In this document: in pieces, positions 14,533-22,817 of the stretch
How positions within the stretch are numbered: position 1 is the stretch's first letter
How the letters are laid out: the number at the start of each line of letters is the position of its first letter
DNA from: Alteromonas sp. CI.11.F.A3
Lineage (GTDB): Bacteria; Pseudomonadota; Gammaproteobacteria; Enterobacterales; Alteromonadaceae
Length of the DNA: 64,000 bases
Direction of reading: 5' to 3'
Assembly: GCF_032925565.1 (NCBI RefSeq)
Contig: NZ_CP136708.1
Span: 4,092,001 to 4,156,000, forward strand
Position numbers and translations under genes: made by a program
Notes under the pieces: generated by a model
Databases searched by the model: none
What the model saw: only the letters and a program-made list of their open reading frames with translations
Told to the model about the DNA's origin: nothing

Positions 14533-15882
14533 TTAGTGTTCCCCTACCTCGCCCGCTTCAATTTGATTGATTAAGTTCCCTTCAGCATGGGCCTTTTGAT
14601 ACATAGGCACTTGTTTGATTAGGCGCTTAATCTCAGCCACTTCGTTTAAATAGGCGTCGCTGTCTACTTGCCCATACTTTTCCGTAAATGCTTGCTTACT
14701 CAACCCTTCAGGGAAGGTTTTTATCGCAGGGACAATGTCGTTATCAGATTGAATTCGTGCCACCGCGTTTTGCGTACTTTCGGCATGCTCAGGCATGGTC
14801 GCCACTCGGGCAAATTGTGAGCCCGACATATCGGCACCTAAATCAACAAAACTGTAGCCTGAACCACCTGCACCTCTGTCCATTAACTCTTTGAACTCAC
14901 CAATCGCCCAGGACATATCTTGCTCGGCAAGTAATTCAAGGGCAGCGGAAATAATGAAATGCCGGGCCAAATCGTTACGCTCCAATAAAATAGCGGGGGC
15001 GCGAGGCTTCAGTGCTTTTGTTGGGTTGGGCTGTAAGTCACCCACTAAGCTACCAATACGATAGTGCCCCACATACGCTGCAAGCGCCAAAATAACCGCT
15101 TTATTATGTAGTGCTGCCTCTTGTGGAGAATTGCTTTGCTCTCTTGCGCGAGCCATGCCTTCCCGTAAATACTCAATAAGAGGCACTGGCTGCTTTGATA
15201 AGGCTAAATCTCGCCCTGAAATATAACGCAAGTAATAAGCGGCAAGGGTTTGAAGCTCGGTTTCTTCTTCAACGCCCATATTATTAGACACAACGGTAAG
15301 CTCTTCTAATAACGAGGCCAGTGGGGCAGTATGTAAAGACACCTCACCACGGCGCATGGTCACTTTTTCAACTCGGGTCAGGGCAATAGTGGCAATTTCA
15401 GACTTAGTCCAATAATTTATACCCTTTTCAGCAAACGAGAGCATGAGAGGCCCAGACAACGACAAATCCCCCACACTAATATAATCAATTTGCAGGCTAT
15501 CGCCGGGTAAAATCAGTGCTGATACATTGAAATATAAATCAACGCTACTGGGTGAAAAGGTAAAGGTAATTGTACTGCCTACTTCGGTTACGTTGACTAC
15601 GCCACTAAAATTAGGCACGGCCCGCTGCAACACCCCGACTAAGCTTTCAATCTGGGTTTCGGTTAGATGAATAACATGATTAGCACTACGCTCGGTGAAC
15701 GCATTTTGTAACTGAGACAATAAGTCGTTAACGCTGTCTGCGCCATCCAATTGGTTTGGTGCACTGGCTACCACTAACGGCGAGCGCTGAACTACAGCTA
15801 CGCTTACCCCTATCAATACGACAAAGGTAACCACGAATAAAGTCACCACGACACCAAGAATCCAACGACCCACACTTCTCAT
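14533..15882 (-). CDS. Membrane-anchored protein of unknown function
   Basis: This 449-residue protein has one N-terminal transmembrane segment (about residues 8-30, ILGVVVTLFVVTFVVLIGVSVAVV), and the rest is probably periplasmic. The first half reads as beta-rich (VGSTITFTFSPSSVDLYFNVSALI). A helical region follows (about 200-360) with HFIISAALELLAEQ, then a loop containing MDRGAGGSGYSFVDLGADMSGSQFA. That loop is the most conserved-looking part and may be an active or binding site. I do not recognise a characterised family. It is monocistronic in appearance. Confidence 0.75.
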   Translation of the reverse strand: MRSVGRWILGVVVTLFVVTFVVLIGVSVAVVQRSPLVVASAPNQLDGADSVNDLLSQLQNAFTERSANHVIHLTETQIESLVGVLQRAVPNFSGVVNVTEVGSTITFTFSPSSVDLYFNVSALILPGDSLQIDYISVGDLSLSGPLMLSFAEKGINYWTKSEIATIALTRVEKVTMRRGEVSLHTAPLASLLEELTVVSNNMGVEEETELQTLAAYYLRYISGRDLALSKQPVPLIEYLREGMARAREQSNSPQEAALHNKAVILALAAYVGHYRIGSLVGDLQPNPTKALKPRAPAILLERNDLARHFIISAALELLAEQDMSWAIGEFKELMDRGAGGSGYSFVDLGADMSGSQFARVATMPEHAESTQNAVARIQSDNDIVPAIKTFPEGLSKQAFTEKYGQVDSDAYLNEVAEIKRLIKQVPMYQKAHAEGNLINQIEAGEVGEH

Positions 15883-16752: not shown

Positions 16753-16779
16753 AAAAAAAGAACCTCCAATCAGGAGGCC
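16753..16779 (-). terminator. Rho-independent terminator of the cheBR-fusion/phytochrome unit
   Basis: On the reverse strand GGCCTCC-TGATT-GGAGGTTC is followed at once by a run of seven T residues. It begins 26 bp after the phytochrome stop codon. It closes the two-gene unit and separates it from the HAD gene. Confidence 0.85.
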
Positions 16780-16804
16780 CTAGATAGATGGTCGGGCACA
16801 ATGC

Positions 16805-18307
16805 CTAACGTGTTAGCGTTCGAATTAACGATGCACGCAGCTTTTTGGAAAACAAAATATCTCGTTTAGTCCACGGTAAGCTTTGCTCACCATCAACTTC
16901 GCTCCACCGCTCAAATGACGCACGTGGCGATAGCATGCCTTGTTCGTTAATATCTTTTTCCGGCTTACCAGCCCAGTGCGTTATTTGCGCTTCAGGCTGT
17001 CTGAAAATATATAATCGCGCTTTGGCCAATTCATAGTTCATACGAATTAGCATCACGCCTCTCACGTTTTCTGAGTCTAATGCCTCTAACCCTGAGTACT
17101 GGCGAATATCTTGGGTGTGCAGAATGACATCAGAAGTGTCTGACTGAAAGGCTTTATCGATACGTTTTAGTAGGCTAATGTCGTAGCCATTGTCATTACT
17201 AATAAACCATTTTCCATTAATGAAAATGGCAGACCCACATGCGGTGAAATCTCGCTTTACGTCTTCTAGAAAATCTTGCGTTGCTTCGGCATCTTTCAGG
17301 CGAAGCTTATGCGTAATAGCCCCAACCTTCTCATCCAATGAGGTGAGTAATTGCAGGCGCTTTTTCGATTTGTGCGTGGAATACACCATAGAGAAATACT
17401 TCACCAGCATTTCCGCTTGATGGCGCAGCTGCGCATCAATGTGCGATTCAGTGCTGTTGTGACAGGACACTATGCCCCACAACTTACCAGTTTGAATGAT
17501 AGGAATAGAAAACGATGTAGCCACGCCCATGTTTTGCATATATTCGCCATGAATAGGCGACACACTGCGTAAATCCGAATACGTTAAGTTTAGCGGTTGT
17601 TCTGCTTGATTCAAAAAGTCAGCTGGCGGTGTAGCACTGCTAGCAATATATCGCGACGGATTTTCATAATACATCTGGCGGGCAATAGCTGGTATGTCCG
17701 ATGCAGGAAATTTTAACCCAATATACTTTGGCGCGCCTTCAATCACTTTTTCTGCTACCACTTCACCGCTCCAAAGTTCATTAAAGCGATAAAGCAATAT
17801 ACGTTCACAGGGCAAGAACTCATCAAGGGTTGAGATAAGCTGATCCCAAAAATCCTCATCTTCCCAATGCTGTTCAATGGTAGGAAGAATGGCCGATCTT
17901 AATTGCAAATACTGACGCTGGGAGACATTAGCAATGCTTGATTCTATCTCAATTAAAATCCCTTCTTCACTACGATGGCTTCTGAAGTTCAGTACATCAT
18001 CATTGAAGGGTTCGTTAAAGGCATAAGCTCTGTCGCCAGCCGTTGAACCTAAGTTATAAAGTATACTTAACGGTAGCCAGTCGAGTGATTTTACCGGCCT
18101 GCCTACCAGCTCTGAGGGCGAGAGGTGAATAAGACTGGCCAAATTACTGCTAGCCGCGGTGACCTGTAGAGATTCACTATCGATAAAAAAGGCGCCCCCA
18201 AATTGCTGAACCTTGCCACTTAAGTGCAAGGCTTCTTTTTCGCAATTTTCAACTAAGGTGTCAATCTCAGTATCGTGTTTATTACGGGTAATCGTATCAG
18301 GGTTCAT
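16805..18307 (-). CDS. Bacteriophytochrome photosensory core (PAS-GAF-PHY) without output domain
   Basis: This 500-residue protein matches the bacteriophytochrome photosensory module along its whole length. Cys22 in ENCEKEALHLSG aligns with the biliverdin-attaching cysteine, followed by a PAS domain (about 20-130). The GAF domain (about 150-310) has PASDIP at 201-206, His253 in SPIHGEYMQNMGV and His283 in SCHNS. The PHY domain (about 325-495) has the tongue signature PRASF at 461-465. The chain ends at the PHY boundary: no HisKA, GGDEF or other effector follows. The ATG at 18307, 7 bp past the upstream stop, is preferred over 18367. A red/far-red sensor acting on a separate partner is the natural inference. 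Confidence 0.92.
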   Translation of the reverse strand: MNPDTITRNKHDTEIDTLVENCEKEALHLSGKVQQFGGAFFIDSESLQVTAASSNLASLIHLSPSELVGRPVKSLDWLPLSILYNLGSTAGDRAYAFNEPFNDDVLNFRSHRSEEGILIEIESSIANVSQRQYLQLRSAILPTIEQHWEDEDFWDQLISTLDEFLPCERILLYRFNELWSGEVVAEKVIEGAPKYIGLKFPASDIPAIARQMYYENPSRYIASSATPPADFLNQAEQPLNLTYSDLRSVSPIHGEYMQNMGVATSFSIPIIQTGKLWGIVSCHNSTESHIDAQLRHQAEMLVKYFSMVYSTHKSKKRLQLLTSLDEKVGAITHKLRLKDAEATQDFLEDVKRDFTACGSAIFINGKWFISNDNGYDISLLKRIDKAFQSDTSDVILHTQDIRQYSGLEALDSENVRGVMLIRMNYELAKARLYIFRQPEAQITHWAGKPEKDINEQGMLSPRASFERWSEVDGEQSLPWTKRDILFSKKLRASLIRTLTR

Positions 18308-18314
18308 AATCTTA

Positions 18315-21300
18315 TTAGCTAATTTGTTTATTAAGCTCTGAGCAAGTAAGCATAGGCGAAAGAACAAGACCCTGTACTACATCGCACCCGATATCCCGTA
18401 AGTATTCGAGCTGCTGTTGAGTTTCAACTTTATCCGCGATGATTTTAAGACCTAGTGCTTTACCTGCATTAACCAAAGCTTGGATGAGTTTATTAGTGTC
18501 ATTGCTATCGCTAGCGTCGGCCATTAATCGGCTGGGAAGCTTAATTTCACTTGCACCGCTTCGTTGAAGCTGAGAGATAGCACTACTGTAAAGGCCATAG
18601 TCATCGATACAGATCACACTGCCCATTGACGCCAATGTCTTCAACCGATGGTAAATTCGCTCTTCACCACTTTCAATATCTTTTTCTGAAACTTCAAATT
18701 TAAATAGACCAGCGGTGAGTTCATAACGCTCAAGTACTGCCACAAAGTTTTTAATAAAATCGGATGTGAGCAACTGTGCCCCAGATAAATTAATTGCTAT
18801 GGCGGGCAGTTTGTTACCAAGCTGTATATATTGAGCAATTTCTCGCGCAACCAACTCAACCGCATGAAAGCCGATGGTTTCTATGAGCTTTCCACGCTCG
18901 GCAATATTAATGAATGACTCAGCACTGAGTACTTCACCATCACTATTTTTATAGCGCAGTAATGCCTCGGCGCCAATTATGGCATTCGAAGTAGACTCGA
19001 ACTGCGGTTGGTATACCATTGAAAACTGTTTACCATCTAGCGCCACTTTAAGCTGTTTTTCAACTTCTAAACGAGCCAATGCCTGCTCTTTCATCTTCGC
19101 GGTAAAGTATTGATATTGATTGCGACCAGAAGATTTCGCTAAATACATGGCTTCATCTGCGTGCTGCAAGAGTATTTCTGAGCTGATCCCATCTGCAGGG
19201 TAAACGGCGATACCAATGCTCGCAGATACGGAAATAGAATGGGTAGACACATCAAATTCGTTTTGAACCTGACTGATAATACGCTTTGCAATATCATCAA
19301 TTTCGTCGATATGAGAAGCCGATACTAAGGCTACAAACTCATCACCGCCAATTCGCGCCAACATATCTGTGTCTCGAATACATTGTTGCAGTCGCTTAGT
19401 AACCTGCTTAAGTAGCAAGTCGCCCACTTTATGACCTAAGTTATCATTAACTGGCTTGAAGTTATCTAGGTCAACAAAGAGTACACCGCACAGTTGCTTG
19501 CTGCGCTTCGCCCCATTTACCATTAATTCAAGGCGTTCAAGCAATACCGTCCTATTGGGTAAACCCGTTAATTCATCATGAGTAGCAAGGTACTCAATAC
19601 GGCGCTGCATATTTTTTATTTCGTCAATATTACTGTAAGACGCTACGTAATTAACAATATCGCCATTAGCGCCTTTTACTGCATTAACTGTTAGCCACAT
19701 TTTTACATGGCTACCATCTTTCACTTTGTTTATGACCTCACCTTGCCAAAACCCTCGTTCAATCAACGAGGCCTTCATTGCAGCAAAGAAATCTTTAGAG
19801 TGCTCTCCTGATTCCAGCAACTTAGGTGTTTTTCCGGTTAACTCCTGCTGAGAAAAACCCGTTAGCTCTGCAAATGTTTCATTGGTGGTAAGAATGCGCT
19901 GATTGGCATCGGTAACCAGGATAGCTTCACTGGTCCGCTCAAATATCTTGCCAGCTAAACGCAACTGTTCATTGGCATGTAGCTCTTTTGAAATATCTGT
20001 TGCTTGGGTACAAATTGACTTAATAGTGCCTTCTGCATCAAAAATAGGGAATCGCACACTTTTGATAATAACTTTACCAGCCCGCAAGGAGAACTCATCA
20101 AGGGTTTCTACCGGGGATAAAGCACGCATGGTGTCTAAGTCTTTTTCACGGAACTGGCGGGCAGTATCTCGCTCAAAAATTTGAAGGTCGGTTTTACCAA
20201 TCACATCTTGCGCGGTTACGCCAAAGACTTCTTCAAACCGAGAGTTCACAAACTCATATCTACCCGCATTATCTTTTAATGCAATTAACGCCAACGAGTT
20301 GTTCATTATCGATAATAGTTGCTCTTGGCTTTTTTCGATTCGCTCGTGGGCAATGACCAATTCTGAATTATCAATAATCACTAATATGGCCCCAGTGATG
20401 CGGTCTCGATTATCTAAAATTGGCGTGATAAAAATGTTGTAAGTTTCTTGGCTCGATGGCTTGATCACCATGCTCGTTTTTACACCATTACGCAGGGTTT
20501 TACTTAAGCGCTTTTCAATGTCTTCAAAATAGTCAGGAAAATTAAGCGAGTACATTGGCTTTTTAAACGAGCCATTATTCAAGTGAAAACGGCGATTGGC
20601 AGCGTCATTCGTTCGGTTTAAGCAGGTATCGGTATCAAACACCAAGATAGGGAAATCTAACGTGTTATAAACGCTCATTAACTCACTGTTTATGGCACCT
20701 AAATCAGCAGACTTACGCATGCTTTCTTCATTTACGCTAATGAGTTCTTCGTTAGTGGCTTGCAACTCTTCGTTGGTGGCTTCAAGTTCTTCGTTATTCG
20801 CTTGTAGCTCTTCGTTAGCGGCTTGCACTTCTTCATTAAGTGCCTGCATTTCTTCTGCAGAGGCAGCCATTTCCTCGGTAAGCGTTTGTAGTTGCTCACG
20901 CGCTGCAATCAGTTCGGCAACATCAGCTTCATTGGTTGCCGTCGGTTCTTTGGGCTCGGCATCAATAATAGCGTCGTCTTCGTAAAAATTAACTAAGTAG
21001 TGCTGAGGACTTTGGTTTTCTAGCGGCAACACCCTTAACTTCCACAGTAGGCTGTCATCATCAGCGAGGCGCTTAGCTCGGCTTGTGACTATTTCACCAG
21101 TACGACTGGCCTTATTCACACAAGAAATTAAGTCTGCGGCGAAAGGCGCAGCAATGAGTTTCGATAAATTAAGATCGGGCACCCCGGATGGAAACGTAAT
21201 AAAGCGTCGTAAATTGCCATGTGAGTGCAAAATGGCAAACCTTTCACTGATGAGTAAACTTGGCCCAAAGCTATCTAGCACAGAGCGAGTGAAAATATTT

Positions 21301-22817
21301 TCGTAGCTGTTAGTGATAGCCGTTTTCGTTTTAGTTATATCTACATGGCTTTTTAGCATTTTCGGCAGTGCGGGAGGCTTAGACGCCTCGCTTACTTTAA
21401 AAATTCTACTGCGCCTATCAAGGGCAACAAACATATCTTCTGTAGAGCCAATCGATTCAGACTTACCTAAAAAGAGAATACCTTCTTTGGTTAGCGAATA
21501 ACGAAACAGTGATAATACCCGCTGCTGTAAATCGCTATTAAAGTAGATAAGTACATTTCTAAACGACACCATATCAAGGTGTAAAAATGGCGGATCTCGC
21601 GTGATATCCTGACGAGAAAAGGTGATTACATCACGCAGTAATTTTTGCGGATAATACGCATTGTCAGCATACCGAAAGTATTTGTCGGTTAAATCGGATG
21701 AAAGGCTTGCAATGGCCTGAACAGAATAAGCCCCTTTGCGGGCAACTGAGAGTGCATGTTCGTCGATATCAGTCGCAAAAATCTGTAAGTTGGCATCAAT
21801 GCCCTGCTTCTCAATAGCTTCAAGAAATAAGATGGCTAATGAGTATGCCTCTTCCCCAGTGGCACATCCTGCTACCCATAACCGAATAGCATCGCCGCTG
21901 TTTTTATTCTCTACAATGCTCTGTATGTGCGTTTTGATAGCGTTAAAGGCAGTGTGATCTCTAAAAAAATCGGTAACTGAAATTAAAAGCTCTTTCGACA
22001 ATGCTATAACTTCATCGGCGTTATTGTCTAAATAGGTCAAGTAAGAGGGCAAATCTTCAGTTTGTGTGGCAATTAAACGGCGATTCACCCTGCGCAACAA
22101 GGTAGATTGTTTATAAAAACTGAAGTCTATTTTTGTAGCGGTTCTTATTTTTCCGTAGAGCTCACTCATTAATTCACTTCGAGTGTCTTCCTGCACCGCT
22201 AAGAAATTTCGCGCGATGTTTTGCGAAATATGTGCAATTTCTTGCCCCATTTCTTGGGGTTCAAGAATTGAATCCACAGCCACATTTTCAAGCGCCGCTT
22301 TGGGCATGCCATCATATTTTGCTGAGGCAGGGTCTTGTACAAAGGCAAATCCACCGACACCTTTGATGGCCTTAAGCCCTCTGGCACCATCGCCACCAGT
22401 ACCAGATAAGATAACGCCAATGGCGTGATCGCCAATTTCGTCAGCTAGTGATTCAAACAAGAGGTTTACCGAAGGCTTAGGCGAAAGCTCATCCGGGGAT
22501 TTATCGAGGTGTAAATACCCCTCTTTGTATTTGAGGTGGAAGCCCGGTGGGCCTACATAAATGGTGTTCGCTTTAATTTTACAATGCGGTGTAGCCTCGA
22601 CCACAGGGTATTCAGTTTCTCGCGCCAATATTTCTGTCATTTGGCTTTTATGGGTAGGCGATAAATGCTGAGCAATAATAAAAGACGCATTAATAGCTTT
22701 TGGTAATTCGCTTACCAAGTTAATCAATGCTTCTATTCCGCCCGCTGAAGAGCCTACGCCAACAATAAAAGGAGCTATCTCAGGTTTAGTCACCCGCGAT
22801 GACGGTAAGGATTCCAT
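18315..22817 (-). CDS. CheB-CheR-PAS-GGDEF-EAL fusion signalling protein
   Basis: This 1500-residue protein reads in order as follows. CheB methylesterase occupies about 15-195, with S24 in SSAGG, H51 and D143 in SGTGGDG. CheR methyltransferase (about 215-480) has VAGCATGEEAYSLA at 315-328 and FRNVLIYF at 419-426. A glutamate-rich coiled coil built on a seven-residue ANEELQA-type repeat covers about 636-705. Three PAS domains follow (about 711-815, 827-945, 952-1065). GGDEF (about 1075-1235) has GGDEF at 1157-1161 and an RxxD inhibitory site at 1148-1151. EAL (about 1255-1497) has EAL at 1284-1286. The EAL site is imperfect: D1462 replaces the usual Glu, and the DDFGTG loop is shortened to DDYGLY. 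It combines receptor methylation chemistry with c-di-GMP synthesis. The phytochrome follows in the same unit. Confidence 0.93.
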   Translation of the reverse strand: MESLPSSRVTKPEIAPFIVGVGSSAGGIEALINLVSELPKAINASFIIAQHLSPTHKSQMTEILARETEYPVVEATPHCKIKANTIYVGPPGFHLKYKEGYLHLDKSPDELSPKPSVNLLFESLADEIGDHAIGVILSGTGGDGARGLKAIKGVGGFAFVQDPASAKYDGMPKAALENVAVDSILEPQEMGQEIAHISQNIARNFLAVQEDTRSELMSELYGKIRTATKIDFSFYKQSTLLRRVNRRLIATQTEDLPSYLTYLDNNADEVIALSKELLISVTDFFRDHTAFNAIKTHIQSIVENKNSGDAIRLWVAGCATGEEAYSLAILFLEAIEKQGIDANLQIFATDIDEHALSVARKGAYSVQAIASLSSDLTDKYFRYADNAYYPQKLLRDVITFSRQDITRDPPFLHLDMVSFRNVLIYFNSDLQQRVLSLFRYSLTKEGILFLGKSESIGSTEDMFVALDRRSRIFKVSEASKPPALPKMLKSHVDITKTKTAITNSYENIFTRSVLDSFGPSLLISERFAILHSHGNLRRFITFPSGVPDLNLSKLIAAPFAADLISCVNKASRTGEIVTSRAKRLADDDSLLWKLRVLPLENQSPQHYLVNFYEDDAIIDAEPKEPTATNEADVAELIAAREQLQTLTEEMAASAEEMQALNEEVQAANEELQANNEELEATNEELQATNEELISVNEESMRKSADLGAINSELMSVYNTLDFPILVFDTDTCLNRTNDAANRRFHLNNGSFKKPMYSLNFPDYFEDIEKRLSKTLRNGVKTSMVIKPSSQETYNIFITPILDNRDRITGAILVIIDNSELVIAHERIEKSQEQLLSIMNNSLALIALKDNAGRYEFVNSRFEEVFGVTAQDVIGKTDLQIFERDTARQFREKDLDTMRALSPVETLDEFSLRAGKVIIKSVRFPIFDAEGTIKSICTQATDISKELHANEQLRLAGKIFERTSEAILVTDANQRILTTNETFAELTGFSQQELTGKTPKLLESGEHSKDFFAAMKASLIERGFWQGEVINKVKDGSHVKMWLTVNAVKGANGDIVNYVASYSNIDEIKNMQRRIEYLATHDELTGLPNRTVLLERLELMVNGAKRSKQLCGVLFVDLDNFKPVNDNLGHKVGDLLLKQVTKRLQQCIRDTDMLARIGGDEFVALVSASHIDEIDDIAKRIISQVQNEFDVSTHSISVSASIGIAVYPADGISSEILLQHADEAMYLAKSSGRNQYQYFTAKMKEQALARLEVEKQLKVALDGKQFSMVYQPQFESTSNAIIGAEALLRYKNSDGEVLSAESFINIAERGKLIETIGFHAVELVAREIAQYIQLGNKLPAIAINLSGAQLLTSDFIKNFVAVLERYELTAGLFKFEVSEKDIESGEERIYHRLKTLASMGSVICIDDYGLYSSAISQLQRSGASEIKLPSRLMADASDSNDTNKLIQALVNAGKALGLKIIADKVETQQQLEYLRDIGCDVVQGLVLSPMLTCSELNKQIS

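Follow-up and report, generated by a model that had tools for sequence, protein, structure and literature searches.

What does a light sensor act on when its gene encodes no output domain? This question is raised by two adjacent genes in Alteromonas sp. CI.11.F.A3, whose genome is a single contig of 4.66 Mb. The window (i.e., the whole 64,000-nucleotide stretch of DNA that was analyzed) covers positions 4,092,001 to 4,156,000 and contains the pair at the following window coordinates.

18315..22817, minus strand: CheB-CheR-PAS-GGDEF-EAL protein of 1500 aa with an ATG start, first gene of the pair (ORF, Pfam, full-length relatives in 12 other genomes)
18308..18314, minus strand: 7-bp intergenic gap between the stop of the large gene and the phytochrome start (sequence)
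16805..18307, minus strand: stand-alone phytochrome core PAS_2-GAF-PHY of 500 aa with bilin Cys22 and no output domain (ORF, Pfam, structure model)
16759..16781, minus strand: terminator-like hairpin with a T tail, 3' of the pair (9 pairs, 5 of them G-C)

An earlier note on this DNA had described a 500-residue phytochrome that ends at its PHY domain and begins 7 bp after a 1500-residue gene, and the ORFs and Pfam searches confirmed that description. The phytochrome ORF runs from an ATG at 18307 to a stop codon at 16805-16807; an alternative ORF of 520 aa uses an upstream TTG start and overlaps the large gene. The same note had the pair closed by a strong terminator. A hairpin with a T tail was indeed found, but such sites were barely more frequent than in shuffled sequence (8 observed versus 6.2, standard deviation 2.7), so that the hairpin is credible by its place and length and not by its mere presence. 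According to Pfam, the 5' neighbor of the pair is a type II topoisomerase B subunit gene, which we take to be parE, and the 3' neighbor encodes a HAD hydrolase. A 449-aa protein (14533-15882, minus strand) without a match in Pfam or NCBIfam is also a neighbor in 12 relatives, in one of which (L046) it is split into two ORFs. At the place of the HAD hydrolase, just past the phytochrome, five relatives have an extra GGDEF-like gene (392 to 421 aa) on the strand opposite to the phytochrome (L041 6552-7775, L043 6497-7720, L044 6659-7882, L045 6385-7563, and L086 6193-7458).

The short protein has the photosensory core of a bacteriophytochrome. Its PAS_2, GAF, and PHY domains (PHY, residues 376 to 498 of 500) are accompanied by an N-terminal bilin Cys, the DIP motif, the GAF histidines, and a PRxSF tongue, and the chain ends where PHY ends. 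It is the sole PHY-domain match in the host genome at an E value of 0.001. Pfam detected no kinase domain, and the score against the BphP sensor kinase family NF041576 (NCBIfam) was 161.7 bits versus a cutoff of 1040. Nor is it a fused phytochrome-GGDEF-EAL protein of the BphG1/PadC type, as sensor and output are separate genes in 20/20 genus genomes. The structure model is confident (pLDDT, 84.5; pTM, 0.80) and matches solved photosensory modules, including those of Agp1 and the Idiomarina phytochrome-cyclase (IsPadC, 5lly). Judged from its residues and its modeled fold, the sensor looks competent. Named relatives by phytochrome identity are Alteromonas sp. MMG017 (99%), A. lipotrueae (93%), A. 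profundi (61%), and A. halophila (42%). A protein search restricted to lengths of 275 to 875 aa returned 2882 matches; among the 120 best that were listed, 119 were 405 to 526 aa long with phytochrome domains only, from organisms such as Rheinheimera, Rhodoferax, Thiohalocapsa, and Skermanella. A plasmid search gave 131 records, and the 30 listed were annotated as kinase or ATP-binding, as bphP, or not at all.

The large protein carries the following parts, all on the minus strand.

22236..22763, minus strand: CheB methylesterase domain, residues 19-194 (Pfam, residue alignment)
21417..22148, minus strand: CheR methyltransferase domains, residues 224-467 (Pfam, residue alignment)
20718..20900, minus strand: coiled coil that links the CheR part to the PAS part, residues 640-700; its EE pairs recur at intervals of seven residues (alignment, model)
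19626..20672, minus strand: three PAS domains, residues 716-1064 (Pfam)
19116..19586, minus strand: GGDEF diguanylate cyclase domain, residues 1078-1234, with motif and RxxD site intact (Pfam, alignment)
18354..19058, minus strand: degenerate EAL domain, residues 1254-1488 (Pfam, alignment)

In Pfam terms, the order is CheB_methylest (19-194), CheR_N (224-266), CheR (281-467), PAS_10 (716-816), PAS_4 (840-943), PAS_9 (964-1064), GGDEF (1078-1234), and EAL (1254-1488). A fourth, unannotated PAS-like stretch likely occupies about residues 505-613 in a model whose pTM is only 0.37. Paramagnetospirillum magneticum AMB-1, a bacterium that moves toward visible light (PMC6532209), has a partner-type protein (P0149) with 46% identity to that of the window. 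With both methylation domains in one chain and their catalytic residues present, the protein is a CheB/CheR fusion: across 51 aligned partner proteins, CheB Ser24/His51/Asp143 and CheR D350, R420, N421, and Y425 were conserved in every one, G317 being replaced by Ala in 8. Each GGDEF and RxxD position was kept in 50 or 51 of the 51. The motif and site qualify the large protein, on sequence grounds, as a putative diguanylate cyclase, and the c-di-GMP output proposed earlier is accordingly plausible as a prediction.

Its EAL domain is another matter. Two positions with known catalytic roles are altered (KID to KLP and AEGVE to ADKVE), which leaves the window's protein short of the conserved catalytic positions of an EAL phosphodiesterase; relatives elsewhere keep the EAL residues. 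Both positions are substituted in 11 proteins (the window's own, L036-L039, L083-L085, L088, P0020, and P0017), and L088, P0020, and P0017 lack five more (E1284, N1343, D1405, D1406, and Q1482). Because these 11 form exactly one clade of the partner-protein tree, a single loss of phosphodiesterase activity, in that clade, is probable. Three other proteins, from outside the set of known pairs, lack the KID aspartate only. A two-way c-di-GMP enzyme is thus probably not what the window encodes.

Within the genus, the two genes travel together. Among 60 relatives, 12 besides the host hold a short-frame phytochrome, and one full-length counterpart of the large protein, at least 56% identical to it, occurs in each of the same 12 and in no other genome among the matches listed; in G001, a more distant 1833-aa frame matched both halves of the large protein in two pieces. 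At an E value of 1e-100, the stand-alone phytochrome was present in 20 of 59 genus genomes (the host's own and one same-species genome included) and the unit was absent from 39. In all 20, the large gene lay directly upstream on the same strand, at a gap of -4 to +27 bp. The topoisomerase gene was the upstream neighbor in 18; of the two exceptions, L044 has a different upstream side, and the unit of L089 (G062) is located elsewhere, among other flanking genes. Because the arrangement is kept in every genus genome with the phytochrome, it is more than chance, and a stand-alone sensor encoded with its effector is what is found in trans-acting photoreceptor pairs.

The pairing extends beyond the genus. 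Profiles were run on overlapping sets of 394 order, 369 class, 398 phylum, and 48 further genomes, and six genomes outside the genus had a Cys-bearing stand-alone phytochrome (G169, G693, G524, G590, G818, and G1135). CheB-CheR was directly upstream of it in 6/6, with the full CheB-CheR-PAS-GGDEF-EAL architecture (1503 to 1518 aa) in 4/6. We counted G818 and G590 despite their two-ORF partners: the former reads as 1058 + 423 aa, and in the latter a CheB-CheR ORF adjoins the phytochrome while PAS-GGDEF-EAL is a separate upstream gene. G1135 was also counted, with a phytochrome in two frames (L092 7324-8813) between intact neighbors on both sides. Co-conservation in relatives, which the earlier note had set beforehand as a test of its proposal, therefore held in 20/20 genus genomes and 6/6 outside.

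Several matches were left out of the six. The candidate in G807 (L079 8569-10577) is a 447-aa ORF of 20% identity without an N-terminal Cys; it lies among flagellar genes and adjoins a short GGDEF ORF. G965 and G992 have fragments with no CheB-CheR match in the stretch inspected, and G218, G513, and G869 have short or partial matches. Two more G818 fragments lie at contig ends, one on C3 and the other (L081) comprising a sensor fragment and the start of a heme-oxygenase gene, its upstream side missing at the contig end. At L080 (5135-9469), a single 1444-aa ORF has phytochrome, PAS, GGDEF, and EAL similarity and so corresponds to the split unit in fused form.

Contig sizes offered a further view. 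Of the 120 listed partners, 118 could be compared (one had no size, and the other matched none), and 17/120 listed phytochromes lay on a contig of exactly the same size as one of these 118 partner contigs, where about 0.5 would be expected; 3 of the 17 were genomes already inspected. In the 25 paired and 14 contig-paired phytochromes that were aligned, the bilin Cys, DIP, both GAF His, and PRxSF were kept in 39/39 (25/25 and 14/14), and every chain ended 33 to 45 residues past PRxSF. From the partner side, full-length matches above 2400 bits in the 369-genome class sample were those of G000 (the host), G524, and G693, all paired. The next full-length partners, G766 (L090, 1441 bits) and G561 (L091, 1223 bits), had no phytochrome match in the surrounding 17 to 18 kb. 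These counts refer to the two best candidates per genome among the matches listed, so weaker unpaired partners may exist.

Trees separated the stand-alone phytochromes from the fused ones. In a quick-method tree with long branches and 71 hand-picked rows (25 inspected pairs, without G1135; 14 of the 17 contig-paired; 12 others without context; and 20 fused), a branch with a support of 97 set the 20 fused phytochromes apart, and 50/51 stand-alone rows grouped together (support, 98), P0122 joining the fused side. The partner tree, which left out G590 and G1135, placed 38 paired proteins on one side of a branch and the two unpaired ones (L090 and L091) on the other; 12 proteins without context information fell on the paired side, some among the paired ones. 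Sensor and partner distances were correlated at 0.951 over 37 pairs (reached by 0/2000 permutations) and at 0.909 over 13 distant pairs (0/5000). Common descent alone can yield such a correlation, so it demonstrates joint inheritance and not contact. When co-divergence was calculated per domain, no partner domain stood out.

Given the 20/20 and 6/6 pairing, the phytochrome is best read as a photosensor that acts in trans and is dedicated to this partner. We consider it probable that the two genes make up one split photoreceptor, in which the sensor controls the c-di-GMP output of its partner in trans, through contact between the two proteins. In phytochromes, PHY usually relays the signal to an output domain fused to it. 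Here the sensor has no output of its own, the same end point is kept class-wide, and an effector with PAS domains and a coil is adjacent, so docking in trans is the simplest reading. The two genes, their recurrent pairing, the kept photosensory and catalytic residues, and the co-divergence are observed; we infer biliverdin binding, the contact, the direction of the light effect, the c-di-GMP output, and the role of CheB and CheR. The phytochrome core would bind biliverdin supplied by a heme-oxygenase-like enzyme, whose gene lies at another place in the host genome, and would switch between red- and far-red-absorbing forms. Its PHY end would most likely be the part that contacts the large protein, at the stack of PAS domains and coiled coil, and the light state of the sensor would set the diguanylate cyclase activity of the partner. 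Since the window's clade has probably lost EAL catalysis, the process under light control there would be the synthesis of c-di-GMP or else its binding by the EAL domain.

The supply of bilin was traced with a profile (A3) built from BphO-like genes of relatives. This own-built profile found a heme-oxygenase-like gene in 13/13 genus genomes tested, in two pieces in G025. The host gene (225 aa), which is unlinked to the pair, adjoins an exonuclease-like gene, an arrangement shared with several relatives; the gene product had no Pfam or NCBIfam match, so that its function is putative. Outside the genus, a heme-oxygenase-like gene lies 3' of the phytochrome in 5/6 genomes and is absent there in G524; four of the five score above the Pfam cutoff of 23, and that of G818 reaches 22.1. 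The first PF01126 match in the host was weak (22.2 bits; 23.1 with neighbors). It lies between ligase-like and SDR-like genes, in a row of ligase-like, HDO-like, and SDR-like genes (L048 1498-2178, i.e., G000:C1 about 1,854,953-1,855,633). We set it aside as probably not a bilin-making heme oxygenase, and presumably it is a TenA/PqqC-type protein.

Several observations count against this reading: the unpaired partner relatives (L090 and L091, with the distant G001 frame as a further candidate), the unlinked host heme-oxygenase-like gene without a family match, the absence of any partner domain that stands out in co-divergence, and the lack of the unit in 39/59 genus genomes at the threshold used.

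The coiled coil raises the alternative that survives best. In the 13/13 genus proteins of the first set, which are otherwise 55 to 96% identical to the window's, each of the 61 residues from 640 to 700 is invariant. Among 135 partner proteins picked as best matches, the coil was the best conserved 60-residue window (0.86; domain means were 0.66 for CheB, 0.66 for CheR, and 0.70 for GGDEF). The structure model has a single helix over residues 631-719, and eight relaxed small-xx-EE/EQ-xx-small units (one with EQ) lie in heptad phase within the coil. The phytochrome may thus act on the CheB-CheR half, with the protein's own EE-heptad coil as methylation substrate and built-in adaptation helix, and the c-di-GMP output following; that CheB-CheR alone is the direct neighbor of the phytochrome in G590 speaks for this alternative, which we regard as possible but doubtful. 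The strict chemoreceptor methylation consensus, used as a yardstick, had 0 matches in residues 640-700. Across all 20 genus proteins, moreover, the longest invariant runs, again in the coil, shrink from 61 to 24 and 21 residues (640-663 and 665-685), and conservation of the outer residues suggests a modification target or, equally, a docking face. We can only tentatively entertain the broader proposal of a widespread light module of two or three genes, whose output-less phytochrome would drive a partner equipped for its own adaptation: CheR and CheB would reversibly methylate the coil, and c-di-GMP signaling would thereby adjust to constant light much as chemoreceptors do to a constant attractant level, within one protein and without a receptor array.

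It is unlikely that the phytochrome serves another, unlinked target (a kinase or transcription factor) and that its neighborhood reflects co-transcription only. Other bacterial phytochromes do have targets in trans, PpsR among them (PMC10813442), but the same neighbor recurs in 20/20 and 6/6 genomes, including G062, where the flanking genes differ. Less likely still is the idea of the earlier note that light alters chemoreceptor methylation by the large protein, tuning chemotaxis together with c-di-GMP. Its intact CheB and CheR catalytic residues make some methylation substrate likely, but no receptor (MCP), CheA, or CheW was recognized among the genes identified in the unit or its conserved flanks, and the coil is a nearer candidate; light-set chemoreceptor adaptation thus found no support. 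Finally, it is most improbable that the short phytochrome is what is left of a decaying kinase phytochrome: an output domain is missing and one outside-genus copy (G1135) is in two frames, but the end point and bilin residues are fully kept in 39/39 and its branch is separate from that of the fused phytochromes.

These findings have implications beyond this genus. A large class of output-less bacterial phytochromes is indicated (119 of the best 120 of 2882 matches), now with a candidate partner, and their signaling route becomes testable. CheB/CheR fusions would gain a defined input, with which a methylation substrate could be sought, and optogenetics would gain a red-light c-di-GMP system in which sensor and output are naturally separate. 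Precedents exist for trans-acting photoreceptors, for fused phytochrome cyclases, and for CheB/CheR fusions. A conserved output-less phytochrome with this effector, often together with a heme-oxygenase-like gene, was not described in the literature searched, whose coverage mostly excluded subscription papers and preprints.

Several known systems resemble the pair in part. CheB/CheR fusions with PAS and GGDEF-EAL share their domain order and EE-heptad coil with the large protein; one group of them has the phytochrome next door, and two unpaired full-length relatives lie across a branch. The BphP sensor kinases (Agp1 and PaBphP) have the same photosensory core and fold, whereas the window's phytochrome has no kinase. 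BphG1 of Rhodobacter sphaeroides is reportedly a fused phytochrome with GGDEF-EAL output. Like the window pair, BphG1 and IsPadC join a phytochrome sensor to a GGDEF (and EAL) output; they do so in one chain, whereas the window has two proteins and adds CheB-CheR. The closest parallel in logic may be PapB-PapA of Rhodopseudomonas palustris, in which a small photosensor that carries no further domain controls a distinct c-di-GMP enzyme by forming a complex with it (PMC8846402). By analogy, the window pair would likewise combine a stand-alone sensor and a separate c-di-GMP enzyme in a putative complex. PapB is a BLUF protein that senses blue light, and PapA consists of an EAL phosphodiesterase alone, whereas the window pairs a bilin-type PAS-GAF-PHY sensor with a CheB-CheR-PAS-GGDEF-EAL protein.
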